The notes under the pieces were generated by a model. That model made no database searches and was not told the DNA's origin. It saw only the letters and a list, made by a program, of their open reading frames with translations. DNA of 32,453 nt from a virus. The stretch lies in the IMG/VR virus record IMGVR_UViG_3300034375_003432, positions 1-32,453 of that record; one strand, written 5' to 3'. Numbering within the stretch: position 1 is the first letter of the stretch; every line of letters begins with the position of its first letter. Made by a program: the position numbers and the translations under genes. Below, piece after piece: positions 13,253-17,577 of this stretch.

Positions 13253-14161
13253 TTAAGCCGTTCTTTTCCACATATAAACGACTATGTAAGGTTGAATTGT
13301 ACTTACTGTAATACTTGGGTTTGTAGTTGGATTTGCGGTGTAGAAATCACTTGTATCTGGATCGCCAGAGAAATCACTCGCTGCTCCAGAAGAATTAAAA
13401 CTACCGCTTGTAAAACTTGAAGAAAAATCTATACCAGAACTAGCACCAGATCTAGTTCCATCGTACCATTGATGCACATGATTAGGTAAAGTTGTTGAAG
13501 CAGTTTTGCCACCGCCTGTTTCTTCAGCAGTATCAAAATCTGTATCAGAAGAATCTATACCTACAGGTACTTTACCAGCACCAAAAGCTACCCATGTACC
13601 AAAACCCAATAAAGTTCCAGGATTGGTACTTACCGCAGCATTTATATAAATTGATCCTACTGGATATATTTTTTCAAAAATATTTGTGCCATTAAGCTGA
13701 AATTGTCCGCCTGTAGTATTGATATGTGATGAAGCAGTTACAGTAGTTGCTGCAACTGTACTAGCAGAATTTGCGCCAATCGCTGTGCCGTCTATTGCAC
13801 CACCATTAATATCTACAGTAGTTAAAGTAGAAGTGCCAGCACAAGTAATGCTGTTTAATGTTGCTAAACCAGAACTGTTTAATGTAGTAAAACTTCCTGG
13901 CGCTGCTGTACTCCCACCAATCGTGGTGTTGTCAATCGCTCCACCTTCGCAATCAATCGTGCCATCTATGTCTAATGTACCAGCTACTTTTAAAGTTTTG
14001 CCAGAGCCTACGTTAAGACCTACTGACGTACCATTACCAGCACCATTGAAAATACCATCGACAGTATCAAGATTTGTATTGATCTTACCACCCCAAGTAT
14101 TCGTGCTTGCGCCTACTTCTGGTTTTACTAATGATAAATTGGTCGTATTTGTATCTGCCAT
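13253..14161 (-). CDS. Tail fibre/collar protein with shared N-terminal anchor
   Basis: This encodes 302 aa. Residues 1-40 ([18 protein letters not shown], then TWG and LDTVDGIF) are close to the start of the S74 fibre encoded two genes upstream. A repeat-like shaft follows (60-150). A tail-collar/baseplate module occupies about 165-235 ([46 protein letters not shown]). The C-terminal part (235-302) has Gly/Ser repeats and ends [12 protein letters not shown]. It probably binds or supports receptor contact at the tail tip. The HVH residues after the GTW block are usual in this collar family. Confidence 0.78.
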
Positions 14162-14182: not shown

Positions 14183-14539
14183 TTAGCCACCGATTGTTTT
14201 TGTTTGTACTACAGGATTTACTAATTCATTAATCTGAGCATCTAGACCATCTTTTTTAGCTTGGACTTCAGTTGCACCCATAGCTGTTTCAACCCAACCT
14301 TGTACGTCACTTGCAGATAAATCTGCAAAAGCTGTAAAGTCTGATAAGTCTGAAGTGTCTAAAGACTGTGTGCCGTATGCTGTAGCAGTAGCAGGTATGT
14401 TACTACCATCAATGTCTTGCACAGTATTAACATCGTCAGTTGCAGTTAATCGCCAATGTACATTAAAGACAGTATCAGTATTACTATCTATAGTTTTGGT
14501 ATCTACAGTTTTGCAATCCCATGTGTAATTAATTGCCAT
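14183..14539 (-). CDS. DUF7936-like small virion protein
   Basis: This encodes 118 aa. The order [58 protein letters not shown] matches a small beta-rich protein family (DUF7936-type) commonly found next to tail fibre genes in marine and cyanobacterial phages. The function is unknown; it could be a fibre-assembly or fibre-adhesin accessory. It overlaps the S74 fibre gene by 11 nt at its start and ends 21 nt before the collar gene, between two fibres that share an anchor. Confidence 0.66.
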
Positions 14540-15980
14540 TTTTTACCTTGTTAATTTGTGTTTGTAAATCTTCTATCATAGTTTGTTGTTCTTGAATAGC
14601 TTTAACCAAAATTGGAATTAAACCAACTTGGTTTACTCCTTTAGCATCATCTAGTGAAGCACCTTTATAATGACTAACCAATTCCTCTAAACCAGCTTCT
14701 TCTATTTCTTGAGCAATAAAACCTGTTTGATTTTTTTCGCCTTCTCCTTCTATCCAATCAAATCTTCTTGGTTTGATTTTTAATATGTCATCTAAACCTT
14801 TATCTAAATTAACAATATTTTCTTTTAATCTTTGATCAGATAAATTAGTTAAACCAACTCTATAAAATACTTGACCTGTAAAATTTACATAAAAATTTAG
14901 ACCACTACCATCATGCACCATATAGGTAGAAGAACCTGTGCCTGAATTTGTGCTTGTGACGTTATGTAAATTACTACCTGTTATTTGGAATCCAGTAGAT
15001 GCTTGATTATCAGCTGTTTTTCCTATTAAAACGCCACCAGCAGAATCAATTCTCATTCTTTCTGCTGCAGCAGCACTTGCTGTATTATCCGCAGTAAAGA
15101 AAAGAATCTGACCATCAGTTCCATTTGCGTTATCATTGTGTATTGCTTGTATCTTTGCTACAACAGTATTGTCTGTTCTTCCAACAAAATTAATATCAGA
15201 TATTGTCGCACTTGCCGAAGGGGAGTTATTTTTTGTAGTTGGTGTAAGTGTAAGATTACCTGCAAGTTCTAATTTCTCATTAGGACTTGTAGTGCCAATA
15301 CCAACTCGTTCTGAACTATCAATCGTAATAGCAGTAGCATCAGCATTATCGTCTATACCTTGAGAAGTAAAAGCACCGCCTACAGTTAGATCAGAAGGTG
15401 TAGTTAATGCACCACTTAACTTAGCAGAAGTTACTGTGTTATCAGCAAGGGTAGTTGCTAAAGCAACATTACCTGTGCCATCAAAAGAAACTGCATTAGC
15501 AGTAACATTACCAGTCAAAGAAAAGTTTCTGCCTGTAGCTAAAGCAGTTGCTGTTGCAGCATTGCCTGATGTATTTTGATTACCTGCACTATTTACTCCA
15601 GGAAGATCTATATTTGCTGTACCATCAAAAGATACCCCACCAATCGTTCTGGCAGTTTGTAAAGCTGTAGCGGTAGCTGCGTTGCCTGTAGTGCTTTGAT
15701 TTAAAGTACCAACAGTTGCAGTTAAAGTAGCACTAGCCAAATTGGTTAAAGTAGCATTTCCAGAAAGATCGCCACCTAATGTTATGACTGGCGATTTGTT
15801 AATTACAACAGCAGATGCTATATCTCCACCATCAATATTTAATGAAACTGGCGTTCCTGTTGCGCTAAATATTGCATCAATCGTATCTAAATCAGTATTT
15901 AAAGAAATACCCCAAGTATCTTCGGCTGCGCCTGGCTCTGGTTTTATAAGTGATAAGTTTGTTGTTGTTGTGTCTGCCAT
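14529..15980 (-). CDS. Tail fibre with S74 intramolecular chaperone
   Basis: This encodes 483 aa. Residues 1-40 ([29 protein letters not shown]) are the virion anchor shared with the collar fibre. Residues about 50-200 contain repeats of GNAATATAL and VSFDGT/VNxxG type typical of trimeric fibres, then [18 protein letters not shown] and [10 protein letters not shown]. The C-terminal 103 residues (from 381) form a peptidase_S74 chaperone: [10 protein letters not shown] (catalytic Ser in SD, Lys in RLK), RFDWIE, TGFIAQE, then a coiled tail. Such domains trimerise the fibre, cut themselves off and are released. All expected S74 elements are visible. This is the likely host-recognition fibre. Confidence 0.88.
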
Positions 15981-15981
15981 A

Positions 15982-16524
15982 TTACGCTACTTCTTGTTCG
16001 TCTAAATCTGTCCAGGTAGTTGTCGGATTTGTTTGGTTTGTCCAAGTATCACTTGCTACAGTTTGTTCTGTCCAAGTATCTGCTGCAACTATTTGGTCTG
16101 TCCATTTTAACCCACCAATAGAACTAAAACTAGAGATTGCTGCAAGCGTAGCAGTACCATGATCTATTTGTGTACCGACTGAAGTAAAGCCAGAAGTTGC
16201 TGCGATAGTTTGTGAAGCAGCAATAACTAAACGACCAGCAGAACTGAAGGCAGAAACGCCAGCCATAGTTACTTTACCAGCGTCAATTTGTGTACCTACA
16301 GAACTAAAACCAGATACAGCTTGAATCGTTGCTGTACCTAAATCTATCTGTGTACCTACTGAACTAAAACCACTTGTACCTGCAATAGTACCTGCACCAA
16401 GTTTGATGATAACGCCAGACGCACTAACACCGCTAACGCCAGCTATTGTGGCTTCAGCTTGATGTGCTAAGTCGTTATATTTGGATCTACTGTAGTAACC
16501 CTGATTATAGCCGATACTGGCCAT
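15982..16524 (-). CDS. Tandem-repeat virion protein (20-aa and 10-aa repeats)
   Basis: This encodes 180 aa. Residues 31-138 are five-plus copies of a 20-residue repeat (type [20 protein letters not shown]), with exact 20-residue spacing at 31, 51, 71, 91, 111 and 131. Residues 141-180 switch to four copies of a 10-residue repeat starting WT ([40 protein letters not shown]). A strand-turn periodicity like this suggests a beta-solenoid shaft followed by a Trp-Thr cap. It lies between the S74 fibre and the Gp80-like gene and is probably a fibre or appendage. No family is recognised. Confidence 0.6.
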
Positions 16525-16528
16525 GATG

Positions 16529-16921
16529 TTACGCCAGCGTTATATCAAGATCTCCAGCATTGAATCTAAAAACATCACCACTACTTACGACCTTTGAGGA
16601 ATCTAAAGTAGAGTAAGCTAATAAATTACCGCCTGAAGAAGCATCTAAAATACCAACAGCAACCACAGTTCCATAGTTGGCTGTAGCTGTAGGATATTCA
16701 ATAGCTGCTGAATTTGTTGCAGTTGTAGGGTTTGTACCAGAAACAGTAAAAGCTGCTGTTTGTCTAGCGTAAGCTCCGCCAGAAACTTCTGTACCACCAC
16801 CAGTATCAGATGGTGCTACTGTATATAAAGCTGCATATAAAGTAGTTGGTGCTGTGTAAGCATTACCACCAAATACATGGTCTAAAACTTTATCTTCTAA
16901 ATAATCACTAAATCCTGACAT
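16529..16921 (-). CDS. Gp80-like virion protein
   Basis: This encodes 130 aa. The pattern FSDYLEDKVLDHVFGG, then APTTLYAALYTVAPSD, ARQTAAFTVSG, YGTVVAVGILDASSGG, LLAYSTL and VFRFNAGDLDITLA matches a compact beta-sandwich family (Gp80-like/PF23140-type) found in many tailed-phage tail regions. It is probably a structural component attached to the tail or fibre. Start ATG 16921 follows the adaptor gene stop by 8 nt. The general fold is fairly clear; the role in the particle is inference. Confidence 0.7.
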   Translation of the reverse strand: MSGFSDYLEDKVLDHVFGGNAYTAPTTLYAALYTVAPSDTGGGTEVSGGAYARQTAAFTVSGTNPTTATNSAAIEYPTATANYGTVVAVGILDASSGGNLLAYSTLDSSKVVSSGDVFRFNAGDLDITLA

Positions 16922-16929
16922 ATCTTACC

Positions 16930-17577
16930 TCAACTCTTAAAATGATAAGTTGTTTTGTGTGCTTTGCCATAAGTTCTTCTTCTTGGTATTAAAGAGCCTT
17001 TGCCAAATTCAGCACGTTCTTGTTCCATTCTCATTTCCTCTAGTGCTTTTTCAAACAACTGAGAAAACATATTTACACGTTCATCTTCCATTAAGTAGAT
17101 CGAAGCGTGTTTTAGACAACCATATAAATAAACATCTGGGTGTCCAGTCGATACAAAGTTGGTAGTGTTTGTGCTACTCAACGCTGCTATCGAAGCATAA
17201 TAAGTTAATTGTAATGTATAACTTGTGTCAGGTGTAGGTGCTAACTCTAAAGTTTTATCAACAATAGAGAAAAAAACTGGTTGTCCAGAAGTATTGTCGT
17301 TAGCTTTTCTATAAACATCTAAAGATTCTATGGATTGTTGTAATAAAGGTGTGAAATCACCAGAGGTAATTTCTACGTTTATAGCTTCTAACCAGTCAGT
17401 TGGTAAAGATAAATATTGACCATCGGCAGTAGCAGTTGCTCTAACTACCATATCTTTGGTTCTTAATCTTCTGTTAAGTTCACCTTCGGTAGCATCAATA
17501 AAAAAATCCAATTTAGAAGTCAAATCACTTCTATTTAAAAAATCTGCTATCTGTGTTTTTAAATCATCGTAAGTCAT
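16930..17577 (-). CDS. SU10-type head-tail adaptor
   Basis: This encodes 215 aa. It opens MTYDDLKTQIADFLNRSDLT with FIDATEGELNRRLRTKDMV, then a TLQLTYYASIAALSSTN strand-helix and a YLYGCLKHASIYLMEDER helix, which is the standard outline of SU10_adaptor/P22 gp4-like proteins. These form a ring under the portal and connect the head to the tail nozzle. The C-terminus is Lys/Arg-rich (RRRTYGKAHKT). It lies just downstream of the capsid gene, the usual place in SU10-like phages. The start overlaps the preceding gene by 4 nt (ATGA). Confidence 0.83.
   Translation of the reverse strand: MTYDDLKTQIADFLNRSDLTSKLDFFIDATEGELNRRLRTKDMVVRATATADGQYLSLPTDWLEAINVEITSGDFTPLLQQSIESLDVYRKANDNTSGQPVFFSIVDKTLELAPTPDTSYTLQLTYYASIAALSSTNTTNFVSTGHPDVYLYGCLKHASIYLMEDERVNMFSQLFEKALEEMRMEQERAEFGKGSLIPRRRTYGKAHKTTYHFKS

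Follow-up and report, generated by a model that had tools for sequence, protein, structure and literature searches.

Phage fibers made of beads on a rope are already known from podophage GP4. In each GP4 fiber I an elongated rope protein reportedly joins five gp80 dimers. Ten chains of PDB entry 8JOU carry the gp80 sequence. Chain 8JOU_g, too, we take to be gp80. A published study presents this chain as a dimer making up a fibril that runs from an adhesin to the collar, and describes its match, LSH1 gp35, as a dimer as well (PMC13243795); the GP4 collar is given as 15:12 in an excerpt of another (PMC10925440). Bead-chain fibers are likewise found in the Anabaena myophage A-1(L), whose neck fiber (gp82-gp81-gp80) forms, according to excerpts of its description, five bead-chain fibers on a 15-fold collar, but in that phage gp81 trimers serve as the beads and link to one another head to tail, with no repeat rope as an additional component (PMC10966104). 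The protein called gp80 in A-1(L) is a different one that has only the number in common. In a search of the literature on GP4 and on rope and bead fibers, under a selection of wordings, we found no 20-residue repeat family tied to a bead gene, no fixed step across families and no paired tail units.

Here we describe a repeat gene in a viral DNA of 32,453 nucleotides (IMG/VR record IMGVR_UViG_3300034375_003432; the whole stretch is called the window below). The window bears the portal, major capsid and adaptor families of SU10 together with an integrase, and looks like a SU10-type podovirus. What it shares with GP4 fiber I (8JOU) is a bead gene of the gp80 family next to the repeat gene, lying 4 bases upstream (Table 1); the bead protein scores 150 bits with PF23140, 'Podophage GP4 fiber I protein gp80', whose curated cut-off is 27. 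We propose that the repeat protein is probably the rope of a bead-on-rope fiber, with one seat per 20-residue step and the steps setting the length of the fiber.

Table 1. Coordinates of the repeat gene, its parts and neighboring genes in the window
Feature	Position	Strand	Basis
Repeat protein (proposed rope), 180 aa	15982..16524	-	ORF call, lag-20 self-comparison
N-terminal head, residues 1-24, proposed anchor	16453..16524	-	Invariant positions in aligned relatives; function inferred
20-residue unit array, residues 25-140	16105..16452	-	Lag-20 signal; sixth unit extends to residue 144
C-terminal tail, residues 141-180, four 10-residue units starting WT	15985..16104	-	Lag-10 signal, even-number rule
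Bead protein, homologue of podophage GP4 fiber I protein gp80	16529..16921	-	PF23140 E=5.8e-44; PDB 8jou_a E=1.4e-9
Adaptor protein (SU10 adaptor family), tail context	16930..17577	-	PF24175 E=3.3e-36; PDB 9nwi and 7z47
S74 fiber gene	14529-15980	-	Pfam/PHROG profile matches
Gp10_C fiber gene	13253-14161	-	Pfam/PHROG profile matches

Results

Architecture of the repeat protein

The repeat gene is read from the minus strand; the plus strand of the same interval contains several stops. Compared with itself at a lag of 20 residues, the protein is identical at 55 of 160 positions, a value reached by none of 5000 shuffles at any lag from 5 to 44, and at a lag of 40 it is identical at 46 of 140. Six 20-residue units, starting at residues 25, 45, 65, 85, 105 and 125, fill residues 25-144 and carry an in-register Phe at 53, 73, 93, 113 and 133. 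The exact 20-residue repeats named in the preliminary description are thus real, in an array wider than the residues 31-138 given there. The four 10-residue repeats beginning with WT that it placed at residues 141-180 hold as well: the tail Trp residues stand at 141, 151, 161 and 171, and lag-10 identity across residues 139-180 is 14 of 32 (0.438), narrowly above the maximum of 5000 shuffles (0.429). DNA identity between units ranges from 42 to 72% over all pairs of the six, with units 2, 3 and 5 the most alike (67-72%), so the array is old, and a fresh tandem duplication of the window gene was rejected. Of the 29 positions that are invariant among 35 aligned relatives, 13 fall in the head (residues 1-24).

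Profile and sequence searches with the repeat protein returned little. No PHROG family was matched at E<=0.1, no Pfam family rose above its cut-off (Fucose_iso_C, at E=0.28, was the only match and lay below it), and no known tail-fiber family in either collection gave a profile match. A tblastn search against named phages gave nothing at E<=0.01, and a search of the PDB by sequence with the window protein and four counterparts gave nothing significant and no GP4 rope chain.

The two fiber genes of the window, Gp10_C and S74, have near-identical first ~38 residues (MADTxTTNLSLxKPE...TW...NTxLDTxDxIF), presumably a shared attachment peptide, to judge from the sequence.

Relatives and variation in length

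The relatives considered here are the best 80 of 83 from IMG/VR viral contigs, which amount to 61 distinct proteins, some of them cut. After six that were cut or had too little upstream sequence were set aside, the bead gene was found directly upstream of the repeat gene in all 74 testable relatives. This linkage is very strong, and the beads concerned are 73-100% identical to that of the window (best segment).

That repeat number may vary between relatives had been anticipated, and it does so by whole units. The 72 complete relatives are 180 (61 proteins), 300 (5), 200 (3), 160 (1), 295 (1) or 440 (1) residues long, and the length is a multiple of 20 in 71 of them, over a range of 160-440 residues. 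The relatives of 200 residues (L022, L033/L034) carry two extra W units, and the deletion that the alignment shows in the protein of 160 residues (L057) removes exactly one 20-residue unit. In the gene for the protein of 440 residues (L076), stretches of identical DNA, 183 nt long at a lag of three units (180 nt) and 145 nt long at four units (240 nt), are whole-unit duplications, an assembly error being possible in this metagenomic contig.

Repeat genes beside bead genes

We then started from the bead. IMG/VR was searched with two bead alignments (A3 and A2), and the best 80 loci of each scan were kept, giving a sample of 160 loci. Plus-strand ORFs were called mechanically, and neighbors within five genes were tested for tandem repetition against 100 shuffles, a gene passing at z>=6 with a best lag of 18-23 or 39-42. 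The gene at +1 of the bead repeats at about 20 or 40 residues in at least 105 of the 155 loci with a called +1 gene (70/78 and 35/77 in the two sets), a count that is lowered by the choice of a wrong frame in some high-GC loci (e.g. L187, L258) and that includes the collagen-like L225, which passed with a lag of 21 and was dropped from the cluster, register and tail counts below. With z>=6 as the only requirement, at least 107 of the 155 +1 genes pass, 96 of them with a peak at exactly 20 and seven at 40; the +1 gene of L261 passed with a lag of 22. By comparison, the background at positions -5 to -2 and +4 to +5 is 6 of 650 genes, and passes at the remaining positions number 1 of 159 (-1), 5 of 135 (+2) and 6 of 98 (+3).

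A count per bead cluster is the fairer figure, since the first set is dominated by one cluster of 68 members. When the beads were clustered at 70%, the repeat stood at +1 in half or more of the members of 23 of 57 clusters and lay within -1 to +3 in 32 of 57, while 25 of 57 had no such repeat within -1 to +3. Among the clusters without it, some show a weak 20-residue pattern to the eye or had their ORF miscalled, and in others another gene occupies that place.

The step itself is exact. In 96 complete arrays adjoining bead genes (64 and 32 from the two sets, incomplete proteins being left out here and in the tail counts), the mean BLOSUM62 self-score peaks at 20, 40, 60, 80, 100 and 120 residues and falls near baseline one residue to either side, in both sets. 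Since the peaks fall at exact multiples of 20, the arrays have no shared slip of phase across six units. The best ungapped lag-20 stretches run from about 4 to 30 units with a median of 9.5, a measure that underestimates diverged arrays (that of phage BcepIL02 scores 3.8 units against about 11 by eye). An hhalign comparison of alignment A4 with A7, which holds six BcepIL02-type proteins and Itty13, found no similarity (E=0.91). On these grounds the exact step appears to be a spacing constraint common to sequences that look unrelated.

Several other features of these loci deserve mention. In L260 and L261 the bead ORFs are natural head-to-tail fusions of two gp80 beads in one chain, which would suit a bead that works as a dimer. 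A repeat class with a period of 17 residues is common in fiber genes near the bead (18 genes outside +1, e.g. L168 3531-5918 and L085 7259-9451). Repeats of about 20 residues also occur fused to other regions beside the bead, in L243 (a +1 gene of 916 aa), L248 (a +1 gene of 1573 aa), L093 (6402-7427), L100 (3789-4949) and L102 (5403-6326). They are C-terminal in a long adhesin-like protein (L243) and N-terminal in baseplate-region proteins of PVJ1 and of Lietuvens (the Lietuvens protein being annotated DUF2313, and its repeats seen by eye only), and the same kind of repeat is present in the minor tail protein gp32 of mycobacteriophage Hocus.

An LD-rich motif, LDxLDxxxxSLDxLxxSLD, opens the repeat protein in some loci and recurs in the stabilization or virion structural protein that follows (L086, 5389-6219 and 6220-7878; L087, 5397-6107 and 6104-7564); it is perhaps a shared docking motif. 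The heads of the repeat proteins differ by family across L105-L233, with a window-like GYxxGxYxxSxY in some, (L/I)N..LNG in others and TLEQLD..SLD in a third group. Thus the anchor may differ between families while the 20-residue step does not.

Named phages

Bead neighbors, a subset of them, were also tested against 200 shuffles in 22 named phage records picked from match lists. Nine of these records have a passing gene next to the bead, at a lag of 20 or 40 (MEP401, ct2t2046, C72C1, BcepMigl, BcepIL02, ctjtQ328, PVJ1, DSL-LC06 and, on the upstream side, Hocus), and the bead-adjacent gene of the other 13 has no significant 20-residue repeat. Three records have a repeat among the tail genes at a greater distance (Venkman gp51; ctvy9321, at +3 with a lag of 21; ctXG6705). 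Four are repetitive by eye and fail the test (phiM5, z 0.4; Lietuvens, 2.3; Itty13, 4.9; phiOH, 5.5), and no 20-residue repeat was seen in CRP-4, DB2, X1, Atu_ph08, Mendera or Mvi-JY20, among which CRP-4 has a repeat with a lag of 36 and DB2 one at +3 with a lag of 22.

In BcepIL02 the repeat protein gp56 is encoded between the bead gp55, which matches 8jou_a at E=2e-48, and gp57, which matches the Pfam family Gp77, 'GP4 fiber-tail adaptor', at E=5.8e-22. It was through BcepIL02-type proteins and Itty13 that counterparts of the GP4 rope were compared, the rope's own sequence not having been found by search. Unlike the window protein, to which they have no sequence similarity, the BcepIL02-type repeat proteins have an Arg-rich tail instead of Trp units: in the +1 genes of L182-L190 there is no Trp tail, and the C-termini show, by eye, Arg/Leu/Val units spaced about 9 residues apart. 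Half-length units at the end of the protein may, on this pattern, be a general feature. When loci were scanned with a loose motif, 16 had a collar-like ORF following the bead, with a 20-lag gene between the two in eight of them; several of these loci are of the BcepIL02 type, and elsewhere the intervening gene is mis-called, weak or absent. A search for Gp77 itself (PF23148) gave no match in the window or in any control genome, and Gp77 is not among the matches of the 21 window proteins scanned with Pfam.

Whether the repeat protein belongs to the finished particle bears on a further reading, namely that it guides bead assembly as a ruler or chaperone and is absent from the virion. The excerpted list of JC1 virion proteins identified by mass spectrometry includes the bead gp53 and also gp55 and lacks the repeat protein gp54 that lies between them (PMC9144972). 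Similarly, in phiM5 the gene after the bead is unmarked in the particle while both of its neighbors are marked, in a phage where the repeat is statistically unsupported. With about five copies per virion, however, a rope would easily escape detection, and gp56 of BcepIL02 is annotated as virion-associated and matches PHROG 19041, 'virion structural protein'. We consider a role confined to assembly highly improbable.

Paired units in the tail

The tail was measured as the chain of C-terminal aromatic residues spaced 9-11 apart. Among 143 unique proteins, chains of W alone number 0 in 14 proteins, 1 in 9, 2 in 23, 4 in 69 and 6 in 28, with none of 3 or 5. When Y is counted as well, the numbers are 0 in 1 protein, 1 in 15, 2 in 9, 3 in 1, 4 in 86 and 6 in 31; families with chains of 0-2 are mostly without such a tail, and the single odd count above 1, the 3 of L163, becomes 6 once F is counted. 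A tail was then required to contain at least two W within a W/Y/F chain, which leaves 119 of the 143 proteins with a tail, all 119 of them even. Ten named phages bring the set to 153 proteins and the tails to 127, with 4 units in 90 proteins, 6 in 34 and 2, 8 and 3 in one each; Y and F can pad a chain by chance, and the one chain of 8 comes from a named phage. L114, which has two W and whose longest aromatic chain is another one, was left out. The number of tail units is thus even in 126 of 127 proteins, the odd one being ctjtQ328 (3), and even counts are found in 34 of 35 sequence clusters.

Because the 10-residue units come in pairs, the tail grows by 20 residues, as the array does. The preliminary description had read the switch from 20 to 10 residues as a halving of the period, with half-turn units at the end of the protein; with tail units paired and the step still 20, this is not supported, and what appears as a halved period is one 20-residue step made of two similar halves. 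The even counts likely fit a two-fold partner, as far as sequences can tell.

They also do not suggest a three-fold design, as would be expected if the protein were the ordinary trimeric beta-fiber shaft of a tail fiber, with gp80 as the adaptor at its base. The adenovirus triple beta-spiral is a model for such a shaft; the repeat gene does lie among fiber genes (S74 and Gp10_C), and its units show a beta-strand-like alternation. Yet PHROG and Pfam recognize neither a receptor-binding nor a trimerization domain in the protein, the N-terminus common to the window's two fiber genes is a different one, and the ten gp80 chains in 8JOU would exceed the need of one base adaptor. Taken as a whole, this makes a trimeric shaft quite unlikely.

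Structure prediction

A beta-solenoid was the fold first suggested for the repeats. AlphaFold2, run on the monomer with 35 aligned sequences, gave a mean pLDDT of 56 for the best model and 38-44 for the other four. The best model has strands in an 8+3+3 pattern per 20 residues, with pLDDT 71-78 across residues 31-100, and falls below 50 at residues 1-24 and 137-180. A repeated strand pattern is thus there in the best model, but it is backed neither by the other four models nor in the Trp tail. The best model appears solenoid-like when read from its strands, and this is a known artefact for 20-residue repeats: according to a passage of PMC11795689, AlphaFold2 produced beta-solenoids from 36 of 50 random sequences built of 20-residue repeats, and the predicted solenoid is for that reason no evidence. 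Foldseek found no match in the PDB at E<=0.001 and two in BFVD at the same threshold, the first named 'Uncharacterized protein' and belonging to an uncultured phage, the second nameless. The beta-solenoid thus has neither a confident, reproducible prediction nor a match to a solved solenoid.

A tethered model of bead plus repeat chain was made for a relative (L127), in an artificial construct with the stop read as Q and with a shallower alignment in which 9 of 28 rows carry the repeats. There the bead reaches pLDDT 75-93, residues 171-270, with most of the repeats, 51-59, and the tail 30-37; the model shows no docking, and no unit stands out.

These results bear on the possibility that the protein is a free-standing beta-solenoid rod, either a monomer or three strands side by side, in which each unit would be one coil, the Trp units a cap, and gp80 an outside binder or a neighbor. 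Beta-solenoid proteins, the pentapeptide repeats among them, make a coil of about 20 residues possible; the strand pattern of the best model resembles theirs, and an exact unit length without slips also suits a rod. On the other side stand the low confidence of four of the five models and of the repeats in the relative, the ease with which random repeats yield solenoids, a prediction unreliable for this class and the lack of a significant structural match; the rod, moreover, would not by itself explain the linkage to a bead gene. We regard it as unlikely. A beta-solenoid with a half-turn end was rejected as the leading view, on the paired tail units and the unreliable AlphaFold2 prediction.

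Discussion

Our reading of the repeat protein as a rope draws mainly on the scan of +1 genes from the bead side, the counts per cluster, the exact register, the even tails and the linkage in relatives. In the mechanism that we propose, the conserved head would anchor one end of the protein to the neck or tail, and the middle would act as a ruler of 20-residue steps, each of which would seat one gp80-type bead unit. That unit would most simply be one two-fold gp80 dimer, with about 10 residues of rope for each of its equal halves. A fully extended strand of 20 residues spans about 65 Å, about the size of a small dimer. The C-terminal tail, with its near-alike halves, would hold the last beads or a distal partner, and its halves would be alike and paired because the bead is two-fold. 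The number of beads, and with it the length of the fiber, would be set by the count of steps, which would evolve through in-frame duplication or loss of whole units. We infer physical binding of the beads to the rope, at one dimer per step, as well as the anchoring of the head and a role of the fiber in reaching the host surface.

By analogy, the best reading is that the repeat protein works like the rope of GP4. To file it as a homologue of that rope would be unjustified, because no Gp77 was found in the window, by a search that gave no match in the control genomes either, and the evidence on presence in the virion is mixed.

It is about an even question whether the bead and the 20-residue ruler form a general, widely shared module for fibers of coded length. 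A conserved dimeric bead would then read the same step across ropes that look unrelated, in podophages, in long-tailed phages that bear a tape measure and in mycobacteriophages; the number of beads, over about 4 to 30 steps, would be written in the rope gene, and the pairs in the tail would have the same cause.

In the records consulted, the gene beside a Gp80 bead (PF23140) is often entered as a 'hypothetical protein', and, if our proposal is true, a simple sequence rule finds the rope partner of this common bead family. What had looked like a halving of the period is a rule of pairs, with a two-fold partner likely behind it. The natural length variants within one family, from 160 to 440 residues, are material for a direct test of a molecular ruler, and, should the proposal hold, the length of such a fiber would be a number that can be read from the genome.
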